DNA from: a candidate division WOR-3 bacterium | GTDB lineage: Bacteria; Hydrothermota; Hydrothermia; Hydrothermales; JAJRUZ01 | Reading direction: 5' to 3' | DNA: 64,000 nucleotides | Assembly: GCA_039803925.1 (NCBI GenBank) | Contig: JBDRZL010000001.1 | Coordinates: 1-64,000 of the forward strand | Shown: one piece after another, positions 14,571 through 62,310 of the stretch | How the letters are laid out: each line of letters begins with the position of its first letter | Numbering within the stretch: position 1 is the stretch's first letter | Made by a program: the position numbers and the translations under genes | The notes under the pieces: model-generated | The model's database searches: none | Told to the model about the DNA's origin: nothing | Seen by the model: only the letters and a program-made list of their open reading frames with translations

Positions 14571-15169
14571 TTTTCCTTTTCCTCTTTGTAGGGGGTTTGA
14601 ACCCTTTCTTTCCTTGAATAATTGTTTATATAATTTTCAAACTTGTTAATATCACCATCCTTTAAAAATTTATAAATTCCCTCTTCTATATATGGAAAAA
14701 CCTTATTAACTAAAATATTAAATTCTTCCTCTTTAAAATCTTCCAAAACATATTTTTCTGCCTCAATATTATAATTAAAACCTATACCTATTCTCAACCT
14801 CTTTATTTCTTCGGTTTCTGCATAGTATATACAGGATTTTAATCCCTTATGCCCACCATCAGAACCTTTAATTCTGAATCTAAGGACTCCAAAGGGTAAA
14901 TTTAAATCATCAAGAAATAAAATTAAATTGAAAAGATTAATATTAAAAATTTCTTTTAATTCTAAAATAATTTTTCCATTCTCATTCATGTAAAGAGATG
15001 GTAAGATACCAATAAAGGGTGGATTTTCAGCATAAAAAAAATTGCCTTTACCAGGTTTAAAATTATTGTCTCTAAAAAAATAACTTATAAACCTGTATCC
15101 AACGTTATGTCTTGTATTTATATATTTTTTACCAGGATTCCCAAGTCCGAATAAAAAAAATTTTATCAC
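14567..15169 (-). CDS. pth: peptidyl-tRNA hydrolase
   Basis: Releases tRNA from peptidyl-tRNA dropped by ribosomes. Family residues are present: [18 protein letters not shown] with the catalytic His, [10 protein letters not shown] with the Asp, and [11 protein letters not shown]. The last dozen residues ([12 protein letters not shown]) extend beyond the usual fold and coincide with the T-arm-like motif that precedes hppA. The start overlaps the rplY stop by 4 bases. Confidence 0.93.
14593..14603 (-). promoter_or_regulatory. T-arm-like motif upstream of hppA
   Basis: GGTTCAAACCC on the minus strand, 22 bases before the hppA ATG and in the sense orientation. It lies in the last codons of pth, in a C-terminal tail that the protein family does not need. 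A TACAAA hexamer follows two bases later. Confidence 0.5.
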
Positions 15170-15813
15170 TCCTCTTTCTTCTTTTCTTCAATTTTTTTCT
15201 CACTTTCTTTTTCTTCACTTATCTCAGGGAGAATTGGTTCTTGAACTGTAATTTCTATTCCCTTTGGATGGGCTATTGTACAGATTGTATCTTCAGGGCT
15301 TTCTAAAATTTTTATTCCTTTCTCAAGTTTTATATCCTTAACATGAATACTTTCACCTATGTTTAAATCAGATATATCAATTTCAATATGTCCTGGAATT
15401 TTGGATGGAACTGTTTTCACATGCAACTGGTGAATAAAGTGTTCAAGTATTCCGCCAAGTTTAACTCCCTTTGCTTCTCCTTTTAGAATAACAGGAACAG
15501 GAACAGTAATTTCTTCTTTTTCATGTAAAACCTGAAAATCAATATGAATTGGATAACCGTAAAGAACATCTCTCTGTATTTCTTTAATGACAGAATTTAC
15601 TTTCTTATTGTCAAATTCAATTTCAAAAATTACAGTTTCTCCATGAATTTCACGCCAGATTTTTTCAAAGTTTTTTCTTTCTATTACAAGATGAACATTT
15701 TCCTCTTTTGCACCATACAGTTCAACAGTTATGAATTCTCTTTTTCTTAACCTTCTTGATTCCCTTGTACCTGTTTTTTCTCTTAATTGTGCTTTTAATT
15801 TAATTTTTTTCAT
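15166..15813 (-). CDS. rplY: ribosomal protein bL25, CTC long form
   Basis: Binds 5S rRNA in the large ribosomal subunit. At 215 residues it is the long TL5/CTC type: the N-terminal L25 domain (about 1-90) is followed by the beta-rich CTC domain (about 95-185) and an acidic/lysine-rich tail. A strong ribosome-binding site (AGGAGGAGG) precedes the ATG. It sits between prs and pth, the common bacterial order prs-ctc-pth. Confidence 0.93.
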   Translation of the reverse strand: MKKIKLKAQLREKTGTRESRRLRKREFITVELYGAKEENVHLVIERKNFEKIWREIHGETVIFEIEFDNKKVNSVIKEIQRDVLYGYPIHIDFQVLHEKEEITVPVPVILKGEAKGVKLGGILEHFIHQLHVKTVPSKIPGHIEIDISDLNIGESIHVKDIKLEKGIKILESPEDTICTIAHPKGIEITVQEPILPEISEEKESEKKIEEKKKEE

Positions 15814-15828
15814 TTTTCCTCCTCCTTT

Positions 15829-16764
15829 TTATACGAAAAGTTCACTTATAGAAACTTCTTCATGAATTCTTTTAATAGCCTCAGCGAGTAAATTGGAAAT
15901 ATCAAGTATTTCAAGTTTTTTAAATCTTTTATGAGGTGATATGGGTATTGTGTTTGTTACAATCACTTTTTCAATAGGGGATGAATCAAGAACTTCTTTA
16001 CTATTCCCTGAAAAAAGCCCATGAGTTGCACACACCCATATACTCTTTGCACCTTTTTCCTTTAAAATGAGAGCTCCATTTGCAACAGTTCTTCCTGTAT
16101 CTATAAGGTCATCCACTATAAGCAAATTTTTATCTTTTACTTCTCCAATTATGTTTATCACTTCTGCCACATTTGGTGCTGGTCTCCTCTTATCAACAAG
16201 CGCAAGTGGTAAATTTCCGAGTCTTTTTGCAAAAGCCCTTGCTCTGTTTGTCCCCCCTACATCAGGTGATATAACCATGAATTTATCACTGGGTAAAATT
16301 CCTAAAAAATCCCTGAAAACCGGTAAAGCATAAAGATTATCAACTGGGATATCAAAAAATCCCTGAATCTGATCAGAATGTAAATCACATGTTAAAACCC
16401 TATTTGCTCCTGCAGTTTGAATTAAATTTGCTACAAGCTTTGCAGAAATAGGAACTCTTGGTGCATCTTTCCTGTCCTGTCTTGCATAACCAAAGTAAGG
16501 AATAACTGCTGTAATTCTTTTTGCTGATGCTCTAACTGCTGCATCAATTAAAAGAAGGAGTTCCATCAGGTTATCAGAAGGTGGGTGTGTGGACTGGACT
16601 ATAAATACATCGCACCCCCTTATATTTTCTTTAATTTGAACTCTTATCTCACCATCAGAGAATCTGGAAACTTCAACATCAGTTTTTTCAATACCCAAGT
16701 TCTTACAGATTTTTTCACTTAACTCAGATGAAGCATTACCACTTAGAATTTTTAGTTTATCCAT
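15829..16764 (-). CDS. prs: ribose-phosphate pyrophosphokinase
   Basis: Makes PRPP from ribose 5-phosphate and ATP for nucleotides, His and Trp. Of 311 residues, visible signatures are the flexible loop YARQDRKDAPR (about 96), the PRPP loop VDDLIDTGRT (about 217), and DLHSDQIQGFF (about 127). The start lies 3 bases after the tlpA stop. Confidence 0.96.
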   Translation of the reverse strand: MDKLKILSGNASSELSEKICKNLGIEKTDVEVSRFSDGEIRVQIKENIRGCDVFIVQSTHPPSDNLMELLLLIDAAVRASAKRITAVIPYFGYARQDRKDAPRVPISAKLVANLIQTAGANRVLTCDLHSDQIQGFFDIPVDNLYALPVFRDFLGILPSDKFMVISPDVGGTNRARAFAKRLGNLPLALVDKRRPAPNVAEVINIIGEVKDKNLLIVDDLIDTGRTVANGALILKEKGAKSIWVCATHGLFSGNSKEVLDSSPIEKVIVTNTIPISPHKRFKKLEILDISNLLAEAIKRIHEEVSISELFV

Positions 16765-16767
16765 TAT

Positions 16768-17244
16768 CTATAAATTTTCTATAATCTTTTTTTCAAAAAA
16801 ACTTTCATCTCTGTAACCAACTATTTTTTCAATTATTTCTCCTTTTTTATTAATTATAAATGTAGTGGGTATCGCAAAAATACCTCCAAATTTTTTGGCA
16901 ACTTCCTCTGTTCCCATCATTAGAGGATAATTTATCCCAAATTCTTTTGCAAAATTTTTTACAAGTTCCTCTGCATTTCCTCCCCTATCAAGAGATATTC
17001 CAACTATTAGAACTCCCTTTTCTTTGTACTTACTATATAATCTTACAAATCCAGGAATTTCTGCCCTGCAGGGAGGACACCAGGTTGCCCAGAAATCAAT
17101 TATGATAACCTTTTTTCCTATATAGTCATTAATATTGAAATTTTCTCCATCAAGGGTTTTTAAAGTAAAAGATGGGACCCTGTTTTCTGCTGTTCGAGAA
17201 CATGAGAAAGAAAACAATAAAAATATAAGGCTAATTTTTTTCAT
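16768..17244 (-). CDS. TlpA-like thioredoxin-fold lipoprotein
   Basis: A membrane-anchored thiol-disulfide oxidoreductase. The preferred start is the ATG at 17244 (MKKISLIFLLF), which gives a proper lipoprotein signal with lipobox FSFSC near residue 15; an ATG at 17259 would add MEVNK. The redoxin domain has FWATWCPPCRAE with the CPPC active site, a GISLDRGG segment and the cis-Pro loop AIPTTF. TlpA/ResA-type proteins act outside the inner membrane, for example in cytochrome c maturation, but the substrate here is unknown. It overlaps the end of speD by 14 bases. Confidence 0.85.
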   Translation of the reverse strand: MKKISLIFLLFSFSCSRTAENRVPSFTLKTLDGENFNINDYIGKKVIIIDFWATWCPPCRAEIPGFVRLYSKYKEKGVLIVGISLDRGGNAEELVKNFAKEFGINYPLMMGTEEVAKKFGGIFAIPTTFIINKKGEIIEKIVGYRDESFFEKKIIENL

Positions 17245-18016
17245 TTTGTTTACCTCCATCTAAATTTTCTTCAATCAAAAGAGAAACCTTTTTTAAAAAA
17301 AATTCATCTTCTTCTTTAAAACCATCTTTTGAGCTTGTTCTAATCACTAACTTGCCTAATTCTTGGCTGTTTCTATAAAGAGGAAATTGAATTTCAGAAT
17401 GAATACTTGGATTTTTTTTATCTTTTTTATCTTTTTTGTTCTTTTTATTAACTGAATATAATAATTTGTCCTTTTTGTAAATACCTATAAAGGAATATTC
17501 TTCAAATGTCTCTCCTAAAAGGTTTAAGATTTTTTCAATTTTATTTTTTTCATTTTCAGAAATTAAATTTTTTACCATTTTTAAAAAACTCTCCTGTTTA
17601 AGTTTTTTTCTATAATGCGTAAGTTCCTCTTCCCATGTAATTATTGAATGAAAAAAAATTCTGTCTCCCTCTTCAAGTCCTCTTGTTATTTCACTTATAT
17701 GAACATTTTCTGCTTTAAATTCCTGAAGAGCAAAGTTAACAGCTTCCTCAGGGTTTGAATGTTCACCACAGGTATATATATCAAGAGCAACATAACCATA
17801 TTCAGGCCATGTATGAACAGAAATGTGGGACTCTGAAATTACAATAACACCAGATACACCCTGAGGAGGGAATCTGTGAAAGGATACAGCCCATATTTTG
17901 ACATTTGCTTTATGGGCTGCATTAACTAAAATTTCCTGCATTTTTTCCACATTCCCAATTATCTGTGGGTCACAACCTGAAGCTTCTACTATATAGTGTT
18001 CTCCAACCGGCTTCAT
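17231..18016 (-). CDS. speD: AdoMet decarboxylase SpeD fused to a GAF-like C-terminal domain
   Basis: AdoMet decarboxylase supplies the aminopropyl group for spermidine. Residues 1-130 are a complete class 1b enzyme, with the self-cleavage Ser in SESHISVHTWPEYGY (about 63) and the TCGEH motif. The family normally ends near 120-140 residues, but this protein has 261. The extra half has a lysine-rich linker and a stretch ending FPLYRNSQELGKLVIR then EEDEFFLKKVSLLIEENL, which resembles the second half of a GAF domain. Fusion to a possible sensor domain suggests regulation of polyamine synthesis, which is inference. A divergent promoter and a T-arm-like motif lie upstream. Confidence 0.88.
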   Translation of the reverse strand: MKPVGEHYIVEASGCDPQIIGNVEKMQEILVNAAHKANVKIWAVSFHRFPPQGVSGVIVISESHISVHTWPEYGYVALDIYTCGEHSNPEEAVNFALQEFKAENVHISEITRGLEEGDRIFFHSIITWEEELTHYRKKLKQESFLKMVKNLISENEKNKIEKILNLLGETFEEYSFIGIYKKDKLLYSVNKKNKKDKKDKKNPSIHSEIQFPLYRNSQELGKLVIRTSSKDGFKEEDEFFLKKVSLLIEENLDGGKQNEKN

Positions 18017-18035
18017 TCTTTTTAATAAATTATTT

Positions 18036-18046
18036 GGATTTGAACC
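18036..18046 (-). promoter_or_regulatory. T-arm-like motif in the speD leader
   Basis: GGTTCAAATCC on the minus strand, 19 bases before the speD ATG. Given the promoter at 18062-18090, it would lie about 10 bases from the 5' end of the mRNA. Confidence 0.6.
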
Positions 18047-18061
18047 ATTTTGAGTATATTA

Positions 18062-18090
18062 ATAATAAGTAAAAAAAAATTAAATTTCAA
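18062..18090 (-). promoter_or_regulatory. promoter of speD
   Basis: TTGAAA (18090-18085), 17 bases, TATTAT (18067-18062) on the minus strand. Transcription would start near 18055, giving a leader of about 40 bases that contains the T-arm-like motif. It lies back-to-back with the rsmI promoter. Confidence 0.6.
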
Positions 18091-18091
18091 A

Positions 18092-18121
18092 TTTAAATAT
18101 CTTTCTTCATTTTTTTATAAT
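18092..18121 (+). promoter_or_regulatory. promoter of rsmI, leaderless
   Basis: Weak -35 TTTAAA (18092-18097), 18 bases, perfect -10 TATAAT (18116-18121). The ATG at 18127 is 5 bases after the -10 box, so transcription and translation should start almost together. Confidence 0.5.
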
Positions 18122-18126
18122 AAAGG

Positions 18127-18804
18127 ATGAACGAAGGAGAATTATTTGTTGTGGCAACACCTATCGGAAATCTTGAAGACATTACCTTTAGAGCTATAAA
18201 GGTGTTAAAGAATTCAGATTTAATTGTATGTGAAGATACACGGAAAACTCTTATTTTACTTAATAAATACGGTATTAAGAAAAAACTCTTTGCATTATTT
18301 AAAGGTAAGGAAAAAAAAAGGACAGAATTTATTATAAATATGTTAAAAGAGGGAAAAAAAATTTCCCTTGTTTCAGAAAGTGGAACACCAGGTATCTGCG
18401 ACCCAGGAGCATATCTTTTAAGAAGATGTCATGAAGAAAATATAAAAGTTTCACCTATTCCTGGACCATCAGCCCTAACCTCTTCCTTATCAGTTTCAGG
18501 TATGGACGGTGATAATTTTTTGTTTCTTGGATTTCCACCAAAAAAGGAATCTAAAAGAAAAAAATTATTTTCTTCCCTAAAAGACGAAAAAAGAACAACT
18601 GTTTTCTATTTATCACCTCACAATATAGATAAAATTCTGCAAGAATTAAAAGAAATTTTAGGAGTTAATAAGAAAGTTTTTTTAATAAGGGAAATGACAA
18701 AAAAATTTGAGGAGTATATTTATGGAACAATTGAGAAAGCTCTTGTATGGGCTAAAAATAAAAAGGGAGAATTTACCCTTGTAATAGAAGGGAAAAAAGA
18801 ATGA
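18127..18804 (+). CDS. rsmI: 16S rRNA (cytidine-1402-2'-O)-methyltransferase
   Basis: Methylates the 2'-OH of C1402 in 16S rRNA using AdoMet. The 225-residue tetrapyrrole-methylase fold shows VVATPIGNLEDITFRA at the start, VCEDTRKT (about 37), SESGTPGICDPG (about 82) and PIPGPSALTSSLSVSG. The length is slightly shorter than the 270-290 of many family members, with a reduced C-terminus. Its TGA overlaps the next start by 4 bases. Confidence 0.93.
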   Translation: MNEGELFVVATPIGNLEDITFRAIKVLKNSDLIVCEDTRKTLILLNKYGIKKKLFALFKGKEKKRTEFIINMLKEGKKISLVSESGTPGICDPGAYLLRRCHEENIKVSPIPGPSALTSSLSVSGMDGDNFLFLGFPPKKESKRKKLFSSLKDEKRTTVFYLSPHNIDKILQELKEILGVNKKVFLIREMTKKFEEYIYGTIEKALVWAKNKKGEFTLVIEGKKE

Positions 18805-19376
18805 AAAAATTAAAAATTATTTTTGAAAAATCAATAATTCCTTTACTTTATTTAATGAATAAATTAGGAATTAAACCAATTCACTTAACTTTTTCAGGAT
18901 TAATTTTTTCTCTAATTCCTGCTTTTTTCTATATAAAAGGTAATTTCCTTTTGGCAGGTATTTTATTAATAATATTTTCCCTATTTGATACATTAGATGG
19001 AGCTCTCGCAAGATATAATGATTCTACTACTAAATTTGGTGCTTTTATTGATTCAGTGACAGATAGAATTCAGGAGGGTATAATTTTTTCTTCCCTTATA
19101 TACTTTTACAGAGAAGAAATAACGAAAGTATTTATCCTTTTTTTTTCCTTTTTATTTTCTTTTTTAATTTCTTATACAAGAGCAAGAGCTGAAGGTCTTT
19201 TTTATTCAATAAGAGTAGGTCCAATGGAAAGGGAGGAAAGAATTGCTTTTATTGCATTTTCTTCTTTAACAGGAAAAAAAGTATTTATTTATCTTTTAAT
19301 ATTATTTTTAATTTTGGTTGTATTAACTTTTTTAAGAAGGATTTTGTATGCTTATAAAATTATGGAAGAAAAGTAA
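18801..19376 (+). CDS. CDP-alcohol phosphatidyltransferase, possibly inositol-phospholipid synthase
   Basis: An integral membrane enzyme that transfers a phosphatidyl group from CDP-diacylglycerol or an equivalent donor to an alcohol. The 191 residues carry the full signature D-x2-DG-x2-AR-x8-G-x3-D-x3-D ([14 protein letters not shown], then [10 protein letters not shown], about 65-92) and about five hydrophobic segments. The next gene is inositol-1-phosphate synthase, so inositol 1-phosphate is a likely acceptor, as in phosphatidylinositol phosphate synthases or archaeal archaetidylinositol phosphate synthase. PgsA activity remains possible. Confidence 0.82.
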
Positions 19377-19377
19377 G

Positions 19378-19388
19378 GGTTCAAACCC
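19378..19388 (+). promoter_or_regulatory. T-arm-like motif in the ino1 leader
   Basis: GGTTCAAACCC, 26 bases before the ino1 ATG. With its flanks it forms a perfect 5-bp stem (AAGGG/CCCTT) closing the 7-base loop TTCAAAC, exactly the geometry of a tRNA T-arm. A normal ribosome-binding site (AAGGAG) lies between motif and ATG. Confidence 0.6.
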
Positions 19389-19414
19389 CTTTATTAATTA
19401 ATAAGGAGTTAATT

Positions 19415-20506
19415 ATGGGTAAAGTAAGGGTTGCTATAATAGGAGTTGGAAACTGTGCTTCATCCTTTGTTCAGGGTGTTTATTATTATAAAAATTCAAA
19501 GGAAGATGATTTTATACCCGGCATTATGCATGTGGTTCTCGGTGGATATCATATAGGGGATATTGAATTTACCCTTGGCATTGATATTGATAAAAACAAG
19601 GTTGGAAAAGATTTAGCAGAAGCAATTTATACATATCCCAATAATACATATAAATTCTGTGATGTTCCCAAATTAAATGTACCAGTTGTTAGAGGAATGA
19701 CTCACGATGGACTAGGAAAATATCTTTCACAAATTATTGAGAAAGCACCAGGAGAAACTGCTGATATTGTTAGATTATTGAGAGAAACTAAAACTGATGT
19801 GGTGGTTAATTTTCTTCCTGTTGGAAGTGAAGAAGCAACAAAATGGTATGTAGAGCAGGTATTAAAAGCAGGATGTGCTTTTGTAAATGGGATTCCTGTT
19901 TTTATAGCAAGGGAACCTTACTGGCAGAGAAGATTTGAAGAGGCAGGTCTTCCTGTAATAGGTGATGATGTAAAATCTCAGGTTGGTGCAACTATTGTTC
20001 ACAGGACACTGGTTCAGTTATTTATAGATAGAGGAGTTAAACTTGAAAGAACAAGTCAGTTAAATGTAGGTGGAAATACAGATTTTCTTAACATGCTTGA
20101 AAGGGAAAGACTTGAATCAAAAAAGAAATCAAAAACAGGCGCTGTTACTTCCCTTTTACCCTATGATATCGGTGAAGAAAATGTGTATATTGGACCTTCT
20201 GATTATGTTGCCTGGTTAAAGGATAGAAAATGGGCATATATGAGGCTTGAAGGAAGAACCTTTGGTGATGTTCCTTTAAATATAGAATTAAAGCTTGAAG
20301 TCTGGGATTCTCCTAATTCAGCAGGAGTAATTGTTGATGCTGTAAGATGTGCAAAGCTTGGACTTGATAATGGTCTTAAAGGTGCTCTTATTGAGCCTTC
20401 TGCTTACTTTATGAAGTCCCCACCAAAACAGATTCCTGATTTTCAGGCTAAAAAGAAACTGGAAGAATGGATAAAAAAATATACAAAAAAGAAGAAAAAT
20501 AGATAA
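19415..20506 (+). CDS. ino1: myo-inositol-1-phosphate synthase
   Basis: Converts glucose 6-phosphate to inositol 1-phosphate with NAD+. The 363 residues match the prokaryotic type: Rossmann start [47 protein letters not shown] with the catalytic Lys region, and the core [15 protein letters not shown]. Pairing with the CDP-alcohol phosphatidyltransferase suggests inositol lipid synthesis or, in thermophiles, di-inositol phosphate solutes. It is preceded by an AAGGAG site. Confidence 0.93.
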
Positions 20507-20507
20507 G

Positions 20508-21155
20508 TTGGGTAAGTGGGGATTTTTTATTACAGTAGAAGGAATTGAAGGTAGTGGTAAAACAACCCTTGCAAGAGGACTTTTTGAAGAATTAAAAAGC
20601 AAAGGTTTCCCGGTTTTACTCACATGGGAGCCAGGTGGAACAGAGGTAGGTGAAAAAATAAGGGAAATTCTTTTACATTCAGAGGAAATATCTCCCTGGA
20701 CAGAACTTTTTCTTTTTCTGGCATCAAGGAAGGAACATGTTGAAAAAAAAATAATACCTGCATTAAGGGAGGGTAAAATTGTAATTAGTGATAGATTTGA
20801 TGATTCTACAATTGCCTATCAGGGTTATGGAAGATCGCTTAATATAAGACTTATTAAAAGATTCAATAAAATTGCAACTTCAGGTTTAAAGCCTAATGTT
20901 ACTTTTTTAATAGATATAGATCCTGAAATAAGCTTAAAGAGACTTAAAGGTAAAGATAGAATTGAAAGAGAGAGTATGGAATTTCATAAAAAGGTGAGAA
21001 AAGGATACCTTGATATTGCAAAAAGAGCAAAAAAGAGGGTAATTATTTTAGACGGAAATGAAAAGGAGGATGAAATAATTAAAAAGGCTTTTTTAAAAGT
21101 AATAGAAAGATTAAAGGATAAGGGAAAGTTTATTTCACTTATTAAGAGTTTATAG
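20508..21155 (+). CDS. tmk: thymidylate kinase
   Basis: Phosphorylates dTMP to dTDP. The 215 residues include the P-loop EGIEGSGKTT (about 12), the TWEPGGTEVG DR(E/P)-type loop (about 38) and SDRFDDSTIAYQGYGR (about 92). The start is TTG at 20508, one base after the ino1 stop; no ATG or GTG in frame precedes the P-loop. Confidence 0.94.
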   Translation: MGKWGFFITVEGIEGSGKTTLARGLFEELKSKGFPVLLTWEPGGTEVGEKIREILLHSEEISPWTELFLFLASRKEHVEKKIIPALREGKIVISDRFDDSTIAYQGYGRSLNIRLIKRFNKIATSGLKPNVTFLIDIDPEISLKRLKGKDRIERESMEFHKKVRKGYLDIAKRAKKRVIILDGNEKEDEIIKKAFLKVIERLKDKGKFISLIKSL

Positions 21156-21185
21156 CTTAAAATTAAAATTGAAAAGGAGGAAAAA

Positions 21186-22724: not shown

Positions 22725-22974
22725 AAATATATGTGAAAAATGTGGAAAGGTAATAGAAGAAGGTGGAGATTTTTATGAAATTGAAATAATATGTAAAGCT
22801 GGTTTTGATGGAGTTATAAGAGAAACAAATGAGAGTATGGAGGAAATTTTAAAGGATACTGAGCTATACACTGAAGATGAACTTTTAGAGAGTGTTTATG
22901 AAAAAAAGAAATTTGTATTATGTGTTAGATGTAAAGAAATTTGGATGGCAAACCCCTTGCAAAAACCCATTTAA
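22699..22974 (+). CDS. small zinc-ribbon protein of unknown function
   Basis: A 91-residue protein with two CxxC pairs, CEKCGK near residue 12 and CVRCKE near 75, which probably bind one zinc ion. An acidic middle separates them. It overlaps the end of ctpA by 26 bases; the second ATG at 22711 is an alternative start. Its position between ctpA and nnrD does not reveal a role. Confidence 0.6.
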   Translation: MFSNMWKSKNICEKCGKVIEEGGDFYEIEIICKAGFDGVIRETNESMEEILKDTELYTEDELLESVYEKKKFVLCVRCKEIWMANPLQKPI

Positions 22975-23005
22975 ATTTTTATAAATTTTTATAAAGGAGG
23001 CAACC

Positions 23006-49655: not shown

Positions 49656-49665
49656 AATAAATCAT

Positions 49666-49737
<72 letters not shown>

Positions 49738-49752
49738 TTTCATTGTTTCTTC

Positions 49753-50073: not shown

Positions 50074-50075
50074 AA

Positions 50076-53137: not shown

Positions 53138-53153
53138 CTTTTATTTTTTTTAT

Positions 53154-53183: not shown

Positions 53184-53191
53184 TATAAACT

Positions 53192-53202
53192 GGTTCAAAT
53201 CC
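53192..53202 (+). promoter_or_regulatory. T-arm-like motif in the fabI-like leader
   Basis: GGTTCAAATCC, 19 bases before the ATG, the same distance as for speD and rpmH. AT-rich hexamers follow at once. Confidence 0.6.
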
Positions 53203-53221
53203 ATAAATTTATAAATATGTT

Positions 53222-54001
53222 ATGAAGGGAGAATACGGTTTAATTCTTGGTTCATCAAGTGGTTTTGGAAAAGCAACATCCCTTTATCTTGCAGAAAAGG
53301 GAATAAATATTTTTGGTGTTCATCTTGATAGAAAAAGTACAATGCCTGAAGTTGAAAAATTAATTAAGGAGATTGAAAGTAAGGGTGTTTTTGTAAAATT
53401 TTTCAATGTTAATGCTGCGGACCATGAGAAGAGAAAAGAGGTAATCCATGAGATAGAAAAAATTCTTAAAAAGGAAAGAAAATATTTAAGAATTTTTTTG
53501 CATTCAATTGCATTTGGAACTTTGAAGCCTTACATAGGTCATAATAGGATAAAACCTCCTGATATGGAAATGACACTTGAAGTTATGGGTAATTCTCTTG
53601 TTTGGTGGGTTGTTGATCTTTTTGAAAAAGGATTGCTTGGAAAAGGTTCAAGGGTTTTTGCTATGACAAGTATGGGTTCTCAAAGGGTCTGGGAAAGTTA
53701 TGGTGCTGTTTCTGCTTCAAAAGCCCTTCTTGAGTCCCATATAAGGCAGCTTGCCTTTGAACTTGCAAAATTTGGAATAACCGTGAATGCTATACAAGCG
53801 GGTATAACTGATACTCCAGCTTTAAGAAAAATTCCGGGTCATGAGAGAATGTTGAAATTTGCACAAACTTTTAATCCTTCTGGAAGAATCACAAGACCAG
53901 ACGATGTTGCAAAAGCAATTTATGCACTTTCATTACCTGAAACTCAGTGGATAACGGGAAATGTGATAAGAGTTGATGGTGGAGAGGCTATAGCGGGTTA
54001 A
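53222..54001 (+). CDS. enoyl-ACP reductase, FabL-like short-chain dehydrogenase
   Basis: Probably the last step of fatty acid elongation. The 259-residue SDR fold has the dinucleotide motif GSSSGFGKAT (about 10), the spacing Y-x6-K in SYGAVSASKALL typical of enoyl-ACP reductases, and TDTPALRKIPG plus PSGRITRPDDV near the C-terminus, which resemble FabL (type III). Ordinary SDRs have Y-x3-K, so the wider spacing supports this call; another SDR role is possible. It is convergent with the acyl-CoA dehydrogenase gene, 2 bases apart. Confidence 0.78.
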   Translation: MKGEYGLILGSSSGFGKATSLYLAEKGINIFGVHLDRKSTMPEVEKLIKEIESKGVFVKFFNVNAADHEKRKEVIHEIEKILKKERKYLRIFLHSIAFGTLKPYIGHNRIKPPDMEMTLEVMGNSLVWWVVDLFEKGLLGKGSRVFAMTSMGSQRVWESYGAVSASKALLESHIRQLAFELAKFGITVNAIQAGITDTPALRKIPGHERMLKFAQTFNPSGRITRPDDVAKAIYALSLPETQWITGNVIRVDGGEAIAG

Positions 54002-54003
54002 TT

Positions 54004-55161
54004 TTAAACCTTCATTTTTCTTCTTGCTTCTTTTAAAAGTTCAGATGCAATTATATTTTTCATTATTTCATTTGTGCCTTCATAAATCTGTGTTATTTTA
54101 GCATCCCTCATCATTTTTTCCACAGGGTACTCTTTTATATAACCGTATCCGCCAAAAATTTGAACTGCTTCAATAGTTACACTCATTGCAACATCGGAAG
54201 CGAAACATTTTGCCATTGCAGATTCCTTTTCAGGTTTTTCTCCTCTATCAATAGCTTTTGCGACCTGGTATGTAAGTGCACGGGCTGCTTCTATTTTCAT
54301 AGCCATCTCAGCTAATCTATGTTGTATTGCCTGAAAACCGGAAATTGGCTGACCGAACTGTTTTCTCTGCATTGAATACTCTGCTGCTGCATCAAGAGCT
54401 GCCTGGGCAATTCCGATAGCCTGGGCTGCTACACCGGGTCGTGTATATAAAAATGTATGAGTTGCAACAAAAAGACCCTGTCCTTCTTTTCCAATCAAAT
54501 TTTCTTCAGGAACAAAAACATCTTCAAAAATAACTTCACCTGTTGGGGAAGCTCTTATTCCTAATTTATCTTCTTTTTTACCAAGTTTTAACCCCTTTGT
54601 CCCCTTTTCAACAAGAAAAGCACTCATTCCTCTTGGTCCTCTTTTAGGATCAGTTAAAGCAAATACTGAATAAAAATCAGCAACATGTGCATTTGTTATA
54701 AACTGTTTTACTCCATTTATAACATATCCCCCATCTTTTTTTATTGCTGTTGTTTTTATACTTAAAGCATCACTTCCTGCTTCTGGTTCAGTTAAACAAA
54801 AGGAGGCAATTTTTCCTTTAGCAATTTCAGGTAAAACTTTTCTTTTGAGTTTTTCACTTCCAAAAAGAATAATTGGGAAAGTTCCAAGTGCGGTTCCTGC
54901 AAGAGAAAGAGCAATTCCAGCACATCCCCAGGAAAGTTCCTCAACTGCAAGACAGAGAGCAAAAATTCCCATCCCCAAACCATCATATTCAGGAGGGATA
55001 AAGACCCTGAAAAGGTCTGTTTCAGCCATTACTTTTACTATTTCATAGGGGAATTCGCCACTTTTATCATATTTATCCCTTACGGGAATTATTTTTTCTT
55101 CTGCTATTTTTCTTGCAGTTTGTTTAATCATTAATTCTTCTTCAGATAATTGATATAACAT
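54004..55161 (-). CDS. acyl-CoA dehydrogenase
   Basis: A 385-residue FAD enzyme that makes 2,3-enoyl-CoA. Signatures: CLTEPEAGSDALSIKT (about 120-135), QFITNAHVADFY, and the active-site Glu in QIYEGTNEIMKNI near 365. It resembles short-chain/butyryl-CoA dehydrogenases. No etfAB genes are in the window. It follows mnmE after a 38-base gap with a T-arm-like motif and has no clear ribosome-binding site. Confidence 0.92.
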   Translation of the reverse strand: MLYQLSEEELMIKQTARKIAEEKIIPVRDKYDKSGEFPYEIVKVMAETDLFRVFIPPEYDGLGMGIFALCLAVEELSWGCAGIALSLAGTALGTFPIILFGSEKLKRKVLPEIAKGKIASFCLTEPEAGSDALSIKTTAIKKDGGYVINGVKQFITNAHVADFYSVFALTDPKRGPRGMSAFLVEKGTKGLKLGKKEDKLGIRASPTGEVIFEDVFVPEENLIGKEGQGLFVATHTFLYTRPGVAAQAIGIAQAALDAAAEYSMQRKQFGQPISGFQAIQHRLAEMAMKIEAARALTYQVAKAIDRGEKPEKESAMAKCFASDVAMSVTIEAVQIFGGYGYIKEYPVEKMMRDAKITQIYEGTNEIMKNIIASELLKEARRKMKV

Positions 55162-55185
55162 TTTTTTTAAAAAATTTTTTTAAAG

Positions 55186-55196
55186 GGATTTGAACC
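55186..55196 (-). promoter_or_regulatory. T-arm-like motif upstream of the acyl-CoA dehydrogenase
   Basis: GGTTCAAATCC on the minus strand, 24 bases before the ATG, in the short gap after the mnmE stop. A TTTAAA hexamer follows one base after the motif. Confidence 0.6.
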
Positions 55197-55199
55197 TTT

Positions 55200-56564
55200 C
55201 TATTTTCCAACACAAAAGTCAGAAAAAATTTTCTGTAAGATTTCATTATCAATATCTTTTCCAAGAAGTGTATTTAAATTTGAAAGGGCATTTTTTAAAT
55301 GTAAACCTGTTATTTCTTCCCTTCCTTCTTTGAGTGTTTCTTTACTTTTCTCAATTTCGTAAAGAATTTCCTTTAATTTTGATTCTTCATATAGGGTGAG
55401 AGAAATTTCTGCTGATCCAGATTCTTTTTCAAACCTTTTTTCAATTTCTTTTACTAAATTTTCTAAACCAATACCTTTTAAAGCACTTATTTCAAAAACT
55501 TCATCTCCTAAATCTTTTAAAATATTTTTGTTCCATTTAATTTTTTTATCCATTTTGTTAATCACAAAAATAAAATTTTTTTCTTTCTTTAATTTTTTTA
55601 TTTTTTTTAATTCCCTTTCAAGAGGTTTTTTCTGACTGTCAAAAATCCATATAATTATATCAGATTCTTCAATAATTTTTTCTGTTTTTTTTATTCCAAT
55701 TTTTTCTATTTTTGAAGGTGTTTTTAATCTAAGACCTGCTGTATCGTAAATGATAGAATTTATACCCTTTATACTTATATTTTCTGAAATATAATCCCTT
55801 GTAGTACCAGGAATTTCACTTACTATAGCCCTTTCCTTTTTTATTAATTTATTAAATAGAGTTGATTTTCCTACGTTTGGTGCACCACAAATAGAAATTT
55901 TAAAACCCTCAAAAACCCTTTTTGAATTTTCAGATTCCTCTAAATATTTTTTTATCTTTTTTTCTATTTTTTCAATTTTTTTAAAAATACTTTCTTTTCG
56001 GAAAGGGGGAAGGTCTTCTTCTGGATAATTCAAATTTACTTCAATTTCTGCTGAAATTTCTTTAATATCTTCGAATAAATTTTCAAATTTTTTTCTCAAA
56101 ACTCCTTCAAGTCTTTTTAGGGATATCTCAAGGGCTTTTAAGTTCTCTGATTTTACTATCTGATTTATAGCCTGAGCCTGCAATAAATCCATTTTTCCGT
56201 TTAAAACCGCCCTCATTGTAAATTCTCCTGGCTCAGCAAGTCTTGCTCCTAATTTAATTAGTATTTTCAGAATAATTTCAGGAATAATTATTCCACCATG
56301 AGTAAAAATCTCAGCCATATCCTCACCTGTGTAGCTTTTTGGTTTTTTATAATAAACCCATTGAATTTTATCAATTAATTTTTTCGTATCAGGTTCATAA
56401 ATTTTACCAAGGTACATTTTTCTTTCAATATAGGGTGGAGGAGGTTTTAATATTTTGGAAAGAATTTCAAAAGTTTTTTCTCCTGAAATTCTAATAATGT
56501 TTATAGCTGAATTTTTGGATACAGAGGTAGAAATGGCGCAGATTGTATCTTCTAATCTAAACAA
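55200..56564 (-). CDS. mnmE: tRNA modification GTPase MnmE
   Basis: With MnmG it modifies wobble uridine in tRNA. The 454 residues have the folate-binding N-terminal domain (DTICAIST, GEFTMRAVLNGKMDL), a GTPase domain (GAPNVGKSTLFNKL, EIPGTTRDYI, DTAGL, INKMD at about 225-360), and the C-terminal catalytic Cys in FCVGK. MnmG is not in the window. It ends the conserved rpmH-rnpA-yidD-yidC-jag-mnmE block. Confidence 0.96.
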   Translation of the reverse strand: MFRLEDTICAISTSVSKNSAINIIRISGEKTFEILSKILKPPPPYIERKMYLGKIYEPDTKKLIDKIQWVYYKKPKSYTGEDMAEIFTHGGIIIPEIILKILIKLGARLAEPGEFTMRAVLNGKMDLLQAQAINQIVKSENLKALEISLKRLEGVLRKKFENLFEDIKEISAEIEVNLNYPEEDLPPFRKESIFKKIEKIEKKIKKYLEESENSKRVFEGFKISICGAPNVGKSTLFNKLIKKERAIVSEIPGTTRDYISENISIKGINSIIYDTAGLRLKTPSKIEKIGIKKTEKIIEESDIIIWIFDSQKKPLERELKKIKKLKKEKNFIFVINKMDKKIKWNKNILKDLGDEVFEISALKGIGLENLVKEIEKRFEKESGSAEISLTLYEESKLKEILYEIEKSKETLKEGREEITGLHLKNALSNLNTLLGKDIDNEILQKIFSDFCVGK

Positions 56565-56565
56565 A

Positions 56566-57159
56566 TTAGGTTAAAGGGGCAATAATCAGATTTTTTCTCT
56601 CGCCCCTTCCAGCAGTGTAAATTCTTATACCTTTTTCCTTCTTAAGAGCTCTTCTCACTAATTTTTCTTCTTCTTCAGTAAGGGGATCAAAAGTTATTTC
56701 CCTTTTTATTTCTTTCACTAACTTTGCTACAGCTTTAGCTTTATGAATTATAAAAGAATGTCTTTTTCTTTTATAATCGGATATATCTAACCTTACTTTC
56801 AAATCCTTATACTTTTTTCTAAAAATCTGATAAAGAATATGCTCAAGAGCCTTTAAAGTTTCTCCCTTTTTACCTATTAATAGATTATCAGACCTTCTTG
56901 TTGAAATATTTACATGTATTCTTGGAGGGTGAAAGGCAAAGTTTATTTTACCTTTATCTTTTAGTATATCAAGTAACCCATTTAAAAAATTTTCTATGAG
57001 TTTAAACTCTTCCCATTCAAGGTATACTCTGATTTTTACATTGTTTTGGTTTTCATTTAAGATTTCAATTTTAACATCCTCTCTTTTTGCACCTGTTTCA
57101 TTAAGTGCCTTTTCAATTGCCTTTTCAATCGATTCAGCTTTTATTTCAATATATTTCAT
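56566..57159 (-). CDS. jag: Jag/KhpB RNA-binding protein
   Basis: A 197-residue RNA-binding protein found next to yidC. It has an N-terminal Jag domain (1-50), a KH domain (about 55-130, with DNLLIGKKGETLKALE) and a C-terminal R3H domain (about 135-197). Family members affect cell division and translation through sRNA or mRNA binding. It overlaps yidC by 4 bases. Confidence 0.92.
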   Translation of the reverse strand: MKYIEIKAESIEKAIEKALNETGAKREDVKIEILNENQNNVKIRVYLEWEEFKLIENFLNGLLDILKDKGKINFAFHPPRIHVNISTRRSDNLLIGKKGETLKALEHILYQIFRKKYKDLKVRLDISDYKRKRHSFIIHKAKAVAKLVKEIKREITFDPLTEEEEKLVRRALKKEKGIRIYTAGRGERKNLIIAPLT

Positions 57160-58556
57160 TTTTTAAACCTCTTTTTAATTAACATTGTTTCAAATAAACC
57201 AATTATATTATATAATAACCAGTAATATACAAGTCCAGCAGGAAAGTTTAAAAATATAATTGTAATAAAAACAGACATAAAAAGTCCAATTCTTTTTGTA
57301 TCTTTATCCTGAGATGGTTGAATAATCTGCTGTAAAAGAGAGGTTAAACCCATGAGAACTGGTAACACATAATAGGGATCCTTGCTGGATAAATCCTTTA
57401 TCCATAAAAATAATTCACTTCCTCTAAACATAATTTCATTTGTTAAAACTTGATATAAAGCCCAGAATACAGGTAATTGTAAGAGTAAAGGTAAACAACC
57501 TGAAAAGGGATTAACTCCCATCTCTTTATAAAGTTTTAAAATTTCTTCATTTAATTTCTTTGGATCATCTTTATAAGCTTTTTTTAGAGCATCCATTCTT
57601 GGCTTTAACTCTTCCATTTTTTTCATTGCTCTAAGTGATTTTATTGTTAAGGGAATAAATATTATTTTCATCAAAAGGGTGAAAATAAGAATTACAAGGC
57701 TAAAATGTTTAGTAATGTCATATAGAAAATTAAATGAATAGAGTATGAAAATAGTAAAAGGTTTGACAATAAAAAATCCCATGGGATAAAGTTCATGAAG
57801 CAAAAATCCCTCTTTTTTCAAAACAAAATAGTCTTTTGGTCCTATATATGTAATAAATGAGTCCCTGTTTTCATTTATTAGTTTAAAAAATTTCCCTTCC
57901 TTATATTCCTCTCCTTTTATTATTTTTTTGTAATATTCAGGTTTTATAAGGACTTGCACAAAATATTTGGTTTCACTACCTATCCATAGTGTATTTTCTC
58001 CTGCAAAGTCAATATTTAAGAAATTATTATAGTTATGTCTTTTAACTTTTCCCTTACTGTACTCAATATAATGATAAATTTTTTCATCCCCTTTATCAAT
58101 TAATGGTAATGTTGAAAATAAAAAATAATTGGTATTTATAAATTTAGATTTTAATTTATAACCCTTTTCAAGGATAAATTCTTTTGAAACTTTTCCATCT
58201 GGTGAGGAAAATGATATTTTATTACTTGTAATTTCTTTAATTTCTAAAATAGAATCAAAAGGTGACACAAAATTATAAAAATTTATTTTAACATTCTCCT
58301 TGCTTATTAAGTCTCTATACTTTTTCAATATTATTTCCTTTATAATCCCACCTTTTTCAGAAAAAACAATTTTTAAATTCTCATTTTCAATAATGAAGCT
58401 TCCGCTCTCTTTTAAATTTAAAGATTTAAGTTCAGTTTTTGTAACTTTCTCTTTTAACTCTTCTTTTTTTTCCTTCGGTAAAAGTTTTAAAAGCAAAATG
58501 TTATAAATTATAAAAAATAATAACAAAAATAATATCAAGGTAAAATTTCTATTCAT
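57156..58556 (-). CDS. yidC: membrane protein insertase YidC
   Basis: Inserts and folds inner-membrane proteins. The 466 residues have an N-terminal signal anchor (5-25), a beta-rich periplasmic domain (about 55-260, the Gram-negative form), and the insertase core with five helices (LVILIFTLLMKIIFIPLT, NPFSGCLPLLLQLPVFWALY). The presence of the periplasmic domain fits a diderm cell. Confidence 0.95.
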   Translation of the reverse strand: MNRNFTLILFLLLFFIIYNILLLKLLPKEKKEELKEKVTKTELKSLNLKESGSFIIENENLKIVFSEKGGIIKEIILKKYRDLISKENVKINFYNFVSPFDSILEIKEITSNKISFSSPDGKVSKEFILEKGYKLKSKFINTNYFLFSTLPLIDKGDEKIYHYIEYSKGKVKRHNYNNFLNIDFAGENTLWIGSETKYFVQVLIKPEYYKKIIKGEEYKEGKFFKLINENRDSFITYIGPKDYFVLKKEGFLLHELYPMGFFIVKPFTIFILYSFNFLYDITKHFSLVILIFTLLMKIIFIPLTIKSLRAMKKMEELKPRMDALKKAYKDDPKKLNEEILKLYKEMGVNPFSGCLPLLLQLPVFWALYQVLTNEIMFRGSELFLWIKDLSSKDPYYVLPVLMGLTSLLQQIIQPSQDKDTKRIGLFMSVFITIIFLNFPAGLVYYWLLYNIIGLFETMLIKKRFKK

Positions 58557-58795
58557 TTTCTGAATATTATTTTTAAATCCTCTTCAGGATAGTTTATTCC
58601 ACCCTTTGAAAAGGGGTTACATCTCAAAACTCTCCATAAAGAGAGTAAAAGCCCTTTAAATATCCCATATTTTTTAACTGCCTCTTCCGCATAATAACTA
58701 CATGTCGGATAAAACCTACAGGAAGGGGGAAATAAATTTGAAAAAAGTCTCACTGTTTTTATAATAAGAATAATTAAATTTCTCATTTTTCCCAT
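58553..58795 (-). CDS. yidD: membrane insertion efficiency factor YidD
   Basis: An 80-residue protein with the full family signature, PPSCRFYPTCSYYAEEAV and LLSLWRVLRCNPFSKGG. It sits between rnpA and yidC, overlapping rnpA by 13 bases and yidC by 4. Confidence 0.94.
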   Translation of the reverse strand: MGKMRNLIILIIKTVRLFSNLFPPSCRFYPTCSYYAEEAVKKYGIFKGLLLSLWRVLRCNPFSKGGINYPEEDLKIIFRK

Positions 58796-59109
58796 ATTTC
58801 TTTTATTTCTTTTTCCAATTCCGTAAATTTAGAATTAAGAATTTCACTTTTACCTATAATGACAACATCATATCCTTTAAATAGTAATTTATTTCTTCTA
58901 AAAACTTCTCTTAGGAGTCTTTTAATTCTATTCCTATCATGAGCCTTTAATTTTTCTTTTTTTACTGTAAAAGCTACTTTACCTTTACCCTTTCTATAAA
59001 AGACTAATAGCATTTTTCCCTTTTTAAATTCACCTTTTTGAAAAATTTCATTAATTTCCTCTTTTTTTAATCTCTCAGGAAGTTTAAAATTTATGGCGAA
59101 AGTCTCCAT
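58783..59109 (-). CDS. rnpA: ribonuclease P protein component
   Basis: Protein partner of RNase P, which trims tRNA 5' ends. The 108 residues include the signature [17 protein letters not shown] and the early VAFTVKKEK strand. The ATG at 59109 lies inside rpmH, giving a 19-base overlap; rnpA/rpmH overlap is also known in Thermus. The shared mRNA begins with a T-arm-like motif. Confidence 0.93.
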
Positions 59110-59225
59110 CTTCCTTTTTGTCTTCTTCTTTTTAATACTCTTCTTCCTCCTTTTGTTTTCATTCTTGCTCTGAAACCGTGTCTTCTTTTTCTTTTTATTC
59201 TACTTGGTTGATATGTCCTCTTCAT
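59091..59225 (-). CDS. rpmH: ribosomal protein bL34
   Basis: A 44-residue basic protein, [35 protein letters not shown] and a short tail. The family signature is complete. It starts at ATG 59225 and ends within rnpA. It is the first gene of the rpmH-rnpA-yidD-yidC-jag-mnmE block, which in many bacteria lies near the replication origin next to dnaA; dnaA is not in this window. Confidence 0.95.
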
Positions 59226-59244
59226 TTTTAGAAAGGTTTAAAGG

Positions 59245-59255
59245 GGCTTTGAACC
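59245..59255 (-). promoter_or_regulatory. T-arm-like motif upstream of rpmH
   Basis: GGTTCAAAGCC on the minus strand, 19 bases before the rpmH ATG. It has one change from the consensus (G for Y) but keeps G53, U54, U55, C56, A58 and C61 of a T-loop. TTTAAA follows within three bases. Confidence 0.5.
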
Positions 59256-59277
59256 CTAAAGAAGTTTTGTTTTTAAT

Positions 59278-60552
59278 TTAAGGTATGCTTAAAATCTTGT
59301 TATCTACTTCTTCAATTCCTCCTATATTATCGCCATTTGAGTCAAGTTTTAATCCAGCGGCATCCTTCACATTTTTGCTTATCCATAAATATACAGGCTC
59401 GTTTTTATTGGATAAAAGTGTAAGTTCAATATACGTCTTTTTATTATCATGATTTTGAAATTTTCTCATCCCAAAGGGAATTGCATCCTGAAGATAATTC
59501 CGAAAAACCTTAATAGTTCCAAAATTGATAGTGCTTGTATCCATAAGTTCATCAAACCAGAAGGTTATTATATTATTGGTCCTTGAATAATTTTCAAAAG
59601 ATGGAAAATCAGTTCTTGAACTATCTGGTGCGAAAGTTGCAAATAATATTTCTACCCTGTCAATTCTATCTATTTCAGAAATACCATTATTGTTACCATC
59701 AAGGGAATTACCTGCTGTATCTTTTAAACTTGTATTTATAACAAGTTTATAAACTTTACTGTAATCAAGAGTAAAACCTTTAAAAATTATGTTTGTTCTT
59801 GATGCAGGGGTATCTACCTGGAAACGAGGTGTTCCAAGAGGAATTTCTGTATTTGTTTCATATTCATAAAGATGAAAAGCACCTTGAACTGAACTTTGAT
59901 CTATATCTATTGTAAAGAATCTTACATGCACACTATCCCTTGTTCGAACCAATCCACCGAGAAGAGCTGGATTCGGTGAAATCAAATTTTGAAAAATGCT
60001 AATAAATCTGGGAGGATTGTGATCAGGATCAGGAACAAAATTTCCTCTCCTTGTCCATAATGTTCTGTAATAATAATCAAGGTTTCCTTCAGCAATTCCG
60101 TTTTCATTTCCATCAAGTGGATTTCCTGAGAGGTCTTTTGCAGAGCTTCTAATAATTACTTCATACTTGGTTGAATCAGCATAACCTACATTTGGTGAAA
60201 GTTTATAAATTAATCTATTACTTTCTTTCTCATATTTCCATGAACCTGAAGGAACCTGATTTCCTCTTCCACCAATTACTTTTATCTGAACAGATGATAA
60301 AAGGGAATTTTCATCCATTGGTTCTGAAAAATAAATAAAAATTATATCCTGTATATCAGCAAGTGTCGTATCATAATCTTCAAGGACTCTGTCCCCATCA
60401 AAGGTCTCTACTGAGAGTACTCTTGGAAGTGTATTTTCTTTTATAAACTCATTTCCAAGCTCACCTGGTTCAATTGAGAGTGATTTTCTTTTACATGAGT
60501 ATATACTTAAACTAACAATCACTATTAAGCTTAAATATAAAAATTTCTTCAT
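59278..60552 (-). CDS. lipoprotein with Ig-like (Big_5/SbsA) domains
   Basis: A 424-residue exported lipoprotein with lipobox SIYSC near residue 20. Two to three Ig-like modules are visible, each with a F-x-EPMD-type strand (YFSEPMDENSL, FWFDELMDTST) and a KDxxGNxLDGNxNG segment (KDLSGNPLDGNENG, KDTAGNSLDGNNNG), as in SbsA-type Ig domains. The function is unknown. It is downstream of the barrel gene at 60567 with a strong AAGGAGG site and is probably its partner. Confidence 0.7.
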   Translation of the reverse strand: MKKFLYLSLIVIVSLSIYSCKRKSLSIEPGELGNEFIKENTLPRVLSVETFDGDRVLEDYDTTLADIQDIIFIYFSEPMDENSLLSSVQIKVIGGRGNQVPSGSWKYEKESNRLIYKLSPNVGYADSTKYEVIIRSSAKDLSGNPLDGNENGIAEGNLDYYYRTLWTRRGNFVPDPDHNPPRFISIFQNLISPNPALLGGLVRTRDSVHVRFFTIDIDQSSVQGAFHLYEYETNTEIPLGTPRFQVDTPASRTNIIFKGFTLDYSKVYKLVINTSLKDTAGNSLDGNNNGISEIDRIDRVEILFATFAPDSSRTDFPSFENYSRTNNIITFWFDELMDTSTINFGTIKVFRNYLQDAIPFGMRKFQNHDNKKTYIELTLLSNKNEPVYLWISKNVKDAAGLKLDSNGDNIGGIEEVDNKILSIP

Positions 60553-60566
60553 TTTGGGACCTCCTT

Positions 60567-62279
60567 TTAAAATTTAAATATTACTGAGACCTTCCAACTT
60601 GCTAAATTTGTTAAATTTGAAAAACCCATTAAATCCATTGAAAAAGTCTCTCCTATTTTATATGAAAGACCATAAGCAAAGTTAACACCTGATGTTTTGC
60701 CCTTCTGTAAATTTCTTCTTCCTGTACTTATCTGTTGAGGATCAACTACTATAGTCTCTGTTCCATCTCCTCTTACTGTTCTTGTTACCCTTGTAGAGGA
60801 ATATAAGGGAGTAAAAGTTCTTTCATCTTCAGTAAATACAAAGTAAGGATTTGCACCGAGCCTGAATAAAATGTTTTTACTTAATTTCATTTCGCAGGCA
60901 ACCGGTAACTCCACTCTCCTTCTTGAAAGAGAAAATTCTACTTCATCACTTCTTGAAAAAGCTATTGTAGTAATATAATCATCGGGGTCACTTAGCTCAT
61001 TGTCACCATCATTAAAAGTATTAACATTCTGGAAATTTGAATCTGTTCTTAAAGTTGAGTTAAAAATGTAATTTGTGAAGAAAAAGCCAAATGCGAAAAA
61101 TACTCTTTTTTCAGTATCTATAAATCCTTTAAATCTGTATCCTAAAAGAATTTGATTTCCTTTATCCTCATATTCTATTGAACCATTTGTTTCGTTTGTG
61201 ATTCTATTTTCTCTTAAAGTACCTGTACCAATATCCTCTCTTAAATATATATCTTCAAGCCTCTTAAAAGGAGTATTTCCTTTTGAAATTCCTGAACTTA
61301 AAAAGGTAAAGTACAAATTGTCTTCTGATTCATAGTTTTGGTTTACGATTCTTCTTGTAAAAAATCTTATAAAATATGAACTTCCAGAAGGATTAAGGTT
61401 AAAAAAGGTTTGGTAAATTCTATCTTCTCTTGAAAGCGACCCGCCAGGATTAAAATCTGTATAAGCTCTTGTATAAATATCTTCCATAATTTTTATACTA
61501 TTTATTCCATATCCAATCTGTAAACCAAGATCCGAGTTTAATATTAACTCTTTTATATACAAACCGGCACCAAACATATTATTCTGAAATGTAGAATCTC
61601 TTTTCCCTAAACCAGTCCATTCCTCTCTTTCAAGAAGTGTTCCGTTTACATTATCTCTTTCTTCTCTAAGATAATAAAGATTACCAAAGGGATTAAAAAT
61701 TGGATGACCCGCTGGCTCAAAAAATTCTCCAAATTTTGAGTGAAAGAAAAATAGTCCTCCTATCATATTGCCCATTTCCCTTGCAGCTCCGAGGAAAAAG
61801 GGGTTCTCTTTTGTTTCTCTAAATGAGGATGATATTATTTTTTCGGTATGGAGAGAATCTAAACTTCCATTACCATCTGTATCATATCTTTCAGAGATGA
61901 AATTTTCTGTTTCACCTCTTCCACCTAAAAAATTTGGTTGAGGTGTTTTTAATGTTTGATGAGCGTATAGTAAAGATAAGGGGACTAAATTTCCAAGAGG
62001 TTTAAAGGTATTTTTAAAACCAAACATAAAATATGCCCCATCAATACCGGAAAAAGGCATATCATTATTTGTAGCAATATTTGAGAGTCCTGAGAATAAT
62101 ATATTTTTTTCAACCTCAAAGTATCTTCCTGGATCAAGTAATAAATCAAGGTCATCTTCTATAAGACCCACTGTAGATAGATATCTAAAAGATCTAAATC
62201 TATCACCTATAAAAGGTGGGTTAACCTGAGATATGAGAACTCCATATATGAGCAAAAAAGGTATATATTTTAATTTCAT
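60567..62279 (-). CDS. outer-membrane beta-barrel protein
   Basis: A 570-residue exported protein with a signal peptide (1-18). It has many alternating strands with aromatic girdles and ends in SWKVSVIFKF, whose terminal Phe matches the signal recognised by the BAM complex. A DTDGNGSLDSL loop (about 133-143) resembles a calcium-binding dockerin/EF-hand loop. The transported or bound substrate is unknown. A T-arm-like motif lies 20 bases before the ATG. Confidence 0.65.
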   Translation of the reverse strand: MKLKYIPFLLIYGVLISQVNPPFIGDRFRSFRYLSTVGLIEDDLDLLLDPGRYFEVEKNILFSGLSNIATNNDMPFSGIDGAYFMFGFKNTFKPLGNLVPLSLLYAHQTLKTPQPNFLGGRGETENFISERYDTDGNGSLDSLHTEKIISSSFRETKENPFFLGAAREMGNMIGGLFFFHSKFGEFFEPAGHPIFNPFGNLYYLREERDNVNGTLLEREEWTGLGKRDSTFQNNMFGAGLYIKELILNSDLGLQIGYGINSIKIMEDIYTRAYTDFNPGGSLSREDRIYQTFFNLNPSGSSYFIRFFTRRIVNQNYESEDNLYFTFLSSGISKGNTPFKRLEDIYLREDIGTGTLRENRITNETNGSIEYEDKGNQILLGYRFKGFIDTEKRVFFAFGFFFTNYIFNSTLRTDSNFQNVNTFNDGDNELSDPDDYITTIAFSRSDEVEFSLSRRRVELPVACEMKLSKNILFRLGANPYFVFTEDERTFTPLYSSTRVTRTVRGDGTETIVVDPQQISTGRRNLQKGKTSGVNFAYGLSYKIGETFSMDLMGFSNLTNLASWKVSVIFKF

Positions 62280-62299
62280 AAATTTAAAAATTTTTATAA

Positions 62300-62310
62300 G
62301 GATTAGAACC
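62300..62310 (-). promoter_or_regulatory. T-arm-like motif upstream of the barrel gene (variant)
   Basis: GGTTCTAATCC on the minus strand, 20 bases before the ATG at 62279. One change from the consensus; TATAAA follows after one base. It overlaps the last codon region of cutA by one base. Confidence 0.4.

Follow-up and report, generated by a model that had tools for sequence, protein, structure and literature searches.

A 13-nucleotide hairpin that mimics the T-arm of tRNAs stands in front of numerous unrelated genes of a bacterium of the WOR-3 phylum and on balance seems to act in cis in their mRNA leaders, promoting translation initiation gene by gene, either alone or together with a Shine-Dalgarno (SD) site. 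The element was analysed in a stretch of 64,000 nucleotides (contig JBDRZL010000001.1, positions 1 to 64,000; referred to as the window) and in the genome of the same host (G000; 1.84 Mb, 30% GC). It is restricted to one family of hot-environment bacteria in this phylum. Stem covariation, compensatory changes between orthologues, promoters predicted upstream and operon-internal copies argue that it is an RNA hairpin and not a promoter.

Seven exact copies of GGTTCAAAYCC are present in the window, two of them within the genes for tRNA-Ser and tRNA-Met. With one mismatch allowed, 11 matches were found compared to 2.7 expected (largest number in 100 shuffles: 7). The whole G000 genome contains 95 exact copies, while the reversed control pattern occurs once. 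One-mismatch copies near start codons vary mostly at tRNA positions 57, 59 and 60, and the consensus is therefore GGTTCNANYCC, which is the consensus of the tRNA T-arm at positions 52 to 62. Sites of this type were counted in 859 kb (47%) of G000; genes were simple open reading frame calls, start codons and SD sites were assigned by simple rules, and the calls of SD sites and promoters were consensus-based. Outside tRNA genes, 71 of the 81 sites are located in sense orientation 10 to 37 nt before a start codon (mode 19–24 nt, binomial p ~1e-121), while the remaining ten are not followed by one. This strongly non-random placement relative to start codons, together with the orthologue conservation and the constraint on the loop, bears out the proposal of an earlier note on the window that the motif represents a 5' control element that is T-loop-like and previously undescribed. 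Extrapolated in proportion, about 150 genes carry the element, near 8% of the genes of G000.

The flanks of the motif are mutually complementary. The resulting hairpin comprises a 3-bp stem (51:63, 52:62 and 53:61, the latter two being G-C) and a 7-nt T-loop (UUCNANY). Positions 51 and 63 are paired in 58 of the 71 elements of G000, with A-U, G-C, G-U, U-A and C-G as pair types; Watson-Crick pairs were found in 52 of the 71 compared to 26.9 expected, a value reached in none of 5000 shuffles. No comparable covariation signal was obtained in the G000 elements for partners shifted by one position. In a second genus, 51:63 is paired in 33 of 38 elements (29 Watson-Crick pairs, 13.3 expected). Common descent fails to explain this covariation, because the elements within one genome precede unrelated genes. 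Comparison of orthologues, as the earlier note had proposed, also revealed compensatory double changes at 51:63, from U-A to A-U once and from A-U to G-C twice. The pairs 52:62 and 53:61 are invariant G-C. A longer stem was rejected, since pairs beyond 51:63 do not covary in G000 or the second genus, and conservation around the motif is confined to about −5 to +16.

In a scan of the loop and stem letters, T54, A58, Y60, G53:C61 and G52:C62 were required nearly strictly and T55 and C56 mostly (exceptions are C55 in four and A56 in three cases), whereas position 57 is free and 59 is seldom G. Near-start sites are found only with T54, A58, G53 and C61, i.e. with the 7-nt loop and closing G53-C61 pair of a T-loop, and the closing stem covaries in two genera and between orthologues. 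The tRNAs of the host share the consensus of positions 52 to 62 but have R57, T60 and frequently G59; the leader elements are therefore similar to the T-arm but do not derive from the pool of host tRNAs. Nor do the sites in the window appear to be tRNA genes or remnants, as ARAGORN and Rfam report only three tRNAs there. The Rfam scan of the window at gathering score returned tRNAs only and no known family for the element.

The carriers are mainly housekeeping genes, among them dnaK, rpoD, rpsT, rpsU, rpmH, rpmI, frr, metK, dnaN and the genes for an S1-domain protein and an acyl carrier protein. Since 28 of the 71 elements lie within the upstream coding sequence (CDS) or at most 15 nt after its end, with mostly low promoter scores, the element appears to act per gene and not per transcript. 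Copies are also found before operon-internal and last genes, and the distance between hairpin and AUG is constrained gene by gene, operon interiors included. Operon-internal copies precede rpoD and dnaK in all four genomes of the family and are absent from the closest named relative, Candidatus Hydrothermus pacificus JdFR-72 (G004), a member of the same order but of another family, which lacks the element. In one genome (G002), dnaK is encoded in two frames split near codon 29 (L408/L409), probably by an assembly frameshift. Relative to the reading frame of the upstream gene, the 13 copies within a CDS in G000 fall into only two of the three possible frames, with 7 copies in one and 6 in the other. 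A divergent gene pair of G000 (C2:56362-56384, L020) has two back-to-back elements, 1 base apart, one per gene, and two tandem identical genes for a 56-aa Flp-pilin-like protein (C5:34636 and C5:35076, L041) have an element each in almost identical leaders.

The seven sites in the window reported in the earlier note were verified with their coordinates, sense orientation and gaps to the start codon (22, 19, 26, 19, 24, 19 and 20 nt, in the order of the following list). Six of them are paired at 51:63; the acyl-CoA dehydrogenase element is the unpaired one.

14592..14604, minus strand: T-arm hairpin (positions 51 to 63) before hppA; 51:63 is G-C; hairpin kept in the G001 orthologue
12519..14570, minus strand: hppA, H+ pyrophosphatase (Pfam PF03030)
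18035..18047, minus strand: T-arm hairpin before speD; 51:63 is U-A; without SD site; kept in G001
17231..18016, minus strand: speD, S-adenosylmethionine decarboxylase (Pfam PF02675)
19377..19389, plus strand: T-arm hairpin before ino1; 51:63 is G-C, stem extendable to 5 bp; kept in G001
19415..20506, plus strand: ino1, myo-inositol-1-phosphate synthase (Pfam PF01658)
53191..53203, plus strand: T-arm hairpin before an enoyl-ACP reductase-like (fabI-like) gene; 51:63 is U-A; without SD site
53222..54001, plus strand: enoyl-ACP reductase-like (SDR) gene (Pfam PF13561)
55186..55196, minus strand: T-arm motif before the acyl-CoA dehydrogenase gene; A and C at 51 and 63 (unpaired); only 2 bp and a possible bulged C
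54004..55161, minus strand: acyl-CoA dehydrogenase (Pfam PF00441, PF02771, PF02770)
59244..59256, minus strand: T-arm hairpin before rpmH, with 51:63 as G-C and the variant letter G at position 60
59091..59225, minus strand: rpmH, ribosomal protein L34 (Pfam PF00468)
62299..62311, minus strand: T-arm hairpin before the barrel gene, with A-U at 51:63 and U57 as the variant letter
60567..62279, minus strand: barrel gene (name from the earlier note), 570 aa; no Pfam match

The one-change copies before rpmH and the barrel gene are regarded as real elements, because their orthologues in G003 strictly match GGTTCNANYCC: the rpmH element reads GGTTCAAATCC (L051) and that of the barrel gene GGTTCAATCCC, the latter with G-C at 51:63 and thus a double compensatory change. 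The barrel gene product has an N-terminal hydrophobic stretch and shares 59% identity with its G003 orthologue. The gene upstream of hppA encodes peptidyl-tRNA hydrolase, and its 3' end contains the hppA hairpin. In H. pacificus, the ino1 hairpin is missing and AAGGAGG is found instead, and the orthologue of the enoyl-ACP reductase-like gene has an SD site.

Four genomes of the family contain 105 to 190 matches to the motif-spacer-ATG pattern. The other genomes of the phylum (n = 143) have 4 to 32 matches, which corresponds to the level of tRNA genes, and no expansion was seen in 34 genomes reached via named loci, mostly from other phyla (at most 25 matches). The phylum has a cultured member, strain sy37 (PMC12285271). 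Clear orthologues in G001 and G003 retain the element while the flanks vary, and so do 17 of 17 in a larger G001 set; within the family, none of the clear orthologues examined has lost it. Both outcomes named in the earlier note as refuting, random placement relative to start codons and absence before orthologous genes in close relatives, thus failed to appear. Viral spread was also considered and is not supported by the scan of viral contigs: among the matches listed there was no sign of a leader element, and the contig read closely (L282) contains tRNA-like arrays.

In carriers without an SD site, the hairpin is located 19 to 24 nt before the AUG in 59 of 70 cases, while the median is 24 nt in carriers with an SD site. 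In H. pacificus, 18 of 20 orthologues of carriers have an SD site, compared to 62 of 157 among the other genes (p = 2e-5). In G000, 15 of these 18 carriers have none. The hairpin and predicted leaderless starts are nearly exclusive (two co-occurrences against about 15 expected, by a simple classification). Non-carriers at the head of a transcription unit frequently show a −10 box between −15 and −11, implying leaderless mRNA; this is not so for carriers. In the stretches of G000 that were read (C1 to C7), a −10 box resembling TATAAT is found between −15 and −11 relative to the ATG in about a fifth of the non-coupled genes, and likewise in H. pacificus. These predicted boxes imply widespread leaderless mRNAs in the order. 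The predicted −10 boxes of carriers begin mostly 12 to 28 nt upstream of the motif; with −35/−10 boxes predicted upstream and a covarying stem, the motif does not qualify as a sigma-70 promoter. It is not an SD site either, as GGTTCNANYCC is not complementary to the 16S end. The anti-SD sequence is intact (the 16S rRNA ends with GGATCACCTCCTTT), and neither an altered 16S tail nor a large family-wide 16S insertion was seen. A loss of bS21 was discarded as well, since the protein is encoded in all eight genomes tested.

The proposed action in translation is inferred from this arrangement. The 3' side of the hairpin is separated from the AUG by approximately 21 nt, or by about 24 nt in leaders that additionally have an SD site. 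Spanning roughly −22 to −35, the hairpin would be positioned where the mRNA leaves an initiating 30S subunit, along the edge of the platform. As in the elbow of tRNAs, a lone T-loop makes U55 and C56 available for docking. The favoured idea is thus that the T-loop of the hairpin docks either directly on the ribosome or on a T-loop-binding protein associated with it. The genes for bS21 (rpsU; C2:36464, L019) and for the S1-domain protein (C3:133127, L035), whose products act at the ribosome platform, carry the element themselves, and autoregulation of both is conceivable. Some observations weigh against a role of the hairpin in initiation. On its own, the 3-bp stem is weak, with a mean pairing probability of 0.36 at 37 °C and of 0.25 at 60 °C, so that binding by the ribosome or a protein would have to stabilise it. 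About 40% of the carriers also possess an SD site. Moreover, non-carriers, too, have lost SD sites relative to H. pacificus (36 of 62), and the replacement of SD sites by the hairpin in part of the carriers is therefore suggestive only.

An alternative, considered doubtful, is that tRNA T-loop enzymes (TruB for Psi55, TrmI for m1A58, or m5U54 enzymes) bind or modify the hairpin and thereby regulate mRNA stability or translation. The consensus holds the letters needed by TruB, with G53, U54, U55, C56, A58 and C61 present in most elements, and the host encodes TruB and a TrmI-family protein. Precedents in mRNA exist for both types of enzyme: TruB of E. coli recognises GUUC (PMC13062092), and human TRMT6/61A modifies T-loop-like GUUCRA hairpins (PMC9141559). 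A modification of the leader T-loops by tRNA enzymes of the host is possible. However, elements with C55, which cannot carry Psi55, also exist (four of nine C55 sites precede start codons), pyrimidine 57 is common in the leaders but not in the host tRNAs, and the fixed distance to the AUG is left unexplained unless the enzyme acts on initiation. TruB and TrmI are single-copy and also occur in relatives without the element; an expansion of TruB was not seen, with one copy in each genome that gave a match. The connection to TruB, RNase P or EF-Tu raised in the earlier note is conjectural: TruB has a single copy, and a few elements have C at position 55.

A role in setting mRNA stability, in which the hairpin would shield or fix the 5' ends of short leaders, is unlikely. 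The position of the predicted −10 boxes would bring it close to the 5' end, but copies within upstream coding sequences inside operons and the tight spacing to the AUG do not fit, and a generic 5' clamp would hardly combine a stem of 3 bp with such strict requirements in the loop. Little probability is likewise left for a nut- or ops-like hairpin in transcription elongation, bound by a NusG- or NusA-type factor. Such systems use hairpins of similar size, and many carriers head housekeeping transcription units; however, the fixed distance is that to the start codon and not to the promoter, and operon-internal and last-gene copies occur. A DNA promoter or protein-binding element, i.e. a bacterial counterpart of the B box of Pol III promoters, is the least credible alternative. 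The eukaryotic B box shares the same letters, and the asymmetric 11-mer in sense orientation with an AT-rich stretch 3' of the motif would be compatible with it. The promoter explanation, offered as an alternative in the earlier note, was nevertheless rejected on account of the compensatory covariation at 51:63, the −35/−10 boxes predicted upstream and the mid-operon copies, all of which favour RNA. A dyad site would further require position 60 to be complementary to 54, but 60 is a pyrimidine.

Like an SD site, the T-arm hairpin is short, lies in sense orientation and precedes the start codons of many genes by a constrained distance. It differs in being a T-loop hairpin and not a run of single-stranded purines, in standing approximately 21 nt from the AUG and not 5 to 10 nt, and in its lack of pairing with the 16S tail. 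With the T-arms of the host tRNAs it has in common the 11 letters of positions 52 to 62, the 7-nt loop, U54, U55, C56, A58, Y60 and G53:C61, but it stands alone in the mRNA leader without D-arm or acceptor stem, tolerates pyrimidine 57, avoids G59 and covaries over only 3 bp. The thrS leader of E. coli also contains a tRNA-like hairpin acting on translation, the role proposed here, but it mimics the anticodon arm and belongs to one autoregulated gene, while the T-arm element precedes about 150 or more unrelated genes. The mRNA targets of TruB/Pus4 and TRMT6/61A are similar GUUC or GUUCRA T-loop-like sites (PMC13062092, PMC9141559); they are scattered, whereas the T-arm elements of this one family keep to start codons and include C55 variants. 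Non-SD and leaderless initiation likewise involve SD-free starts in an AT-rich, weakly structured context (PMC5397173), but the proposed system has a specific upstream hairpin, which nearly excludes leaderless starts. In a comparative survey on non-SD starts, the emphasis is on weak structure around the AUG, and the word hairpin does not occur (PMC5397173). In the literature searched, the literal motif matched only papers unrelated by title, and no such element was found in work on non-SD or leaderless initiation.

The accepted routes to a bacterial start codon are SD pairing, leaderless mRNAs and unstructured AU-rich leaders. The best reading of the sequence data is that the hairpin marks a third class of starts alongside leaderless and SD starts. 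Chances appear about even that it represents a new class of initiation signal, a 13-nt T-loop mimic read by the ribosome or a ribosome-bound factor, which has partly supplanted the SD site among 150 to 240 genes of the family. The element provides a defined set of bacterial mRNAs for asking whether tRNA T-loop enzymes act purposefully on mRNA. If the proposed role is true, it would be a compact module suited to reporters and cryo-EM, and the bacteria of this family would possess a further start route, a structured, sequence-specific and genome-wide signal imitating a tRNA arm, by which the dependence on SD sites could relax while the anti-SD sequence remains untouched.

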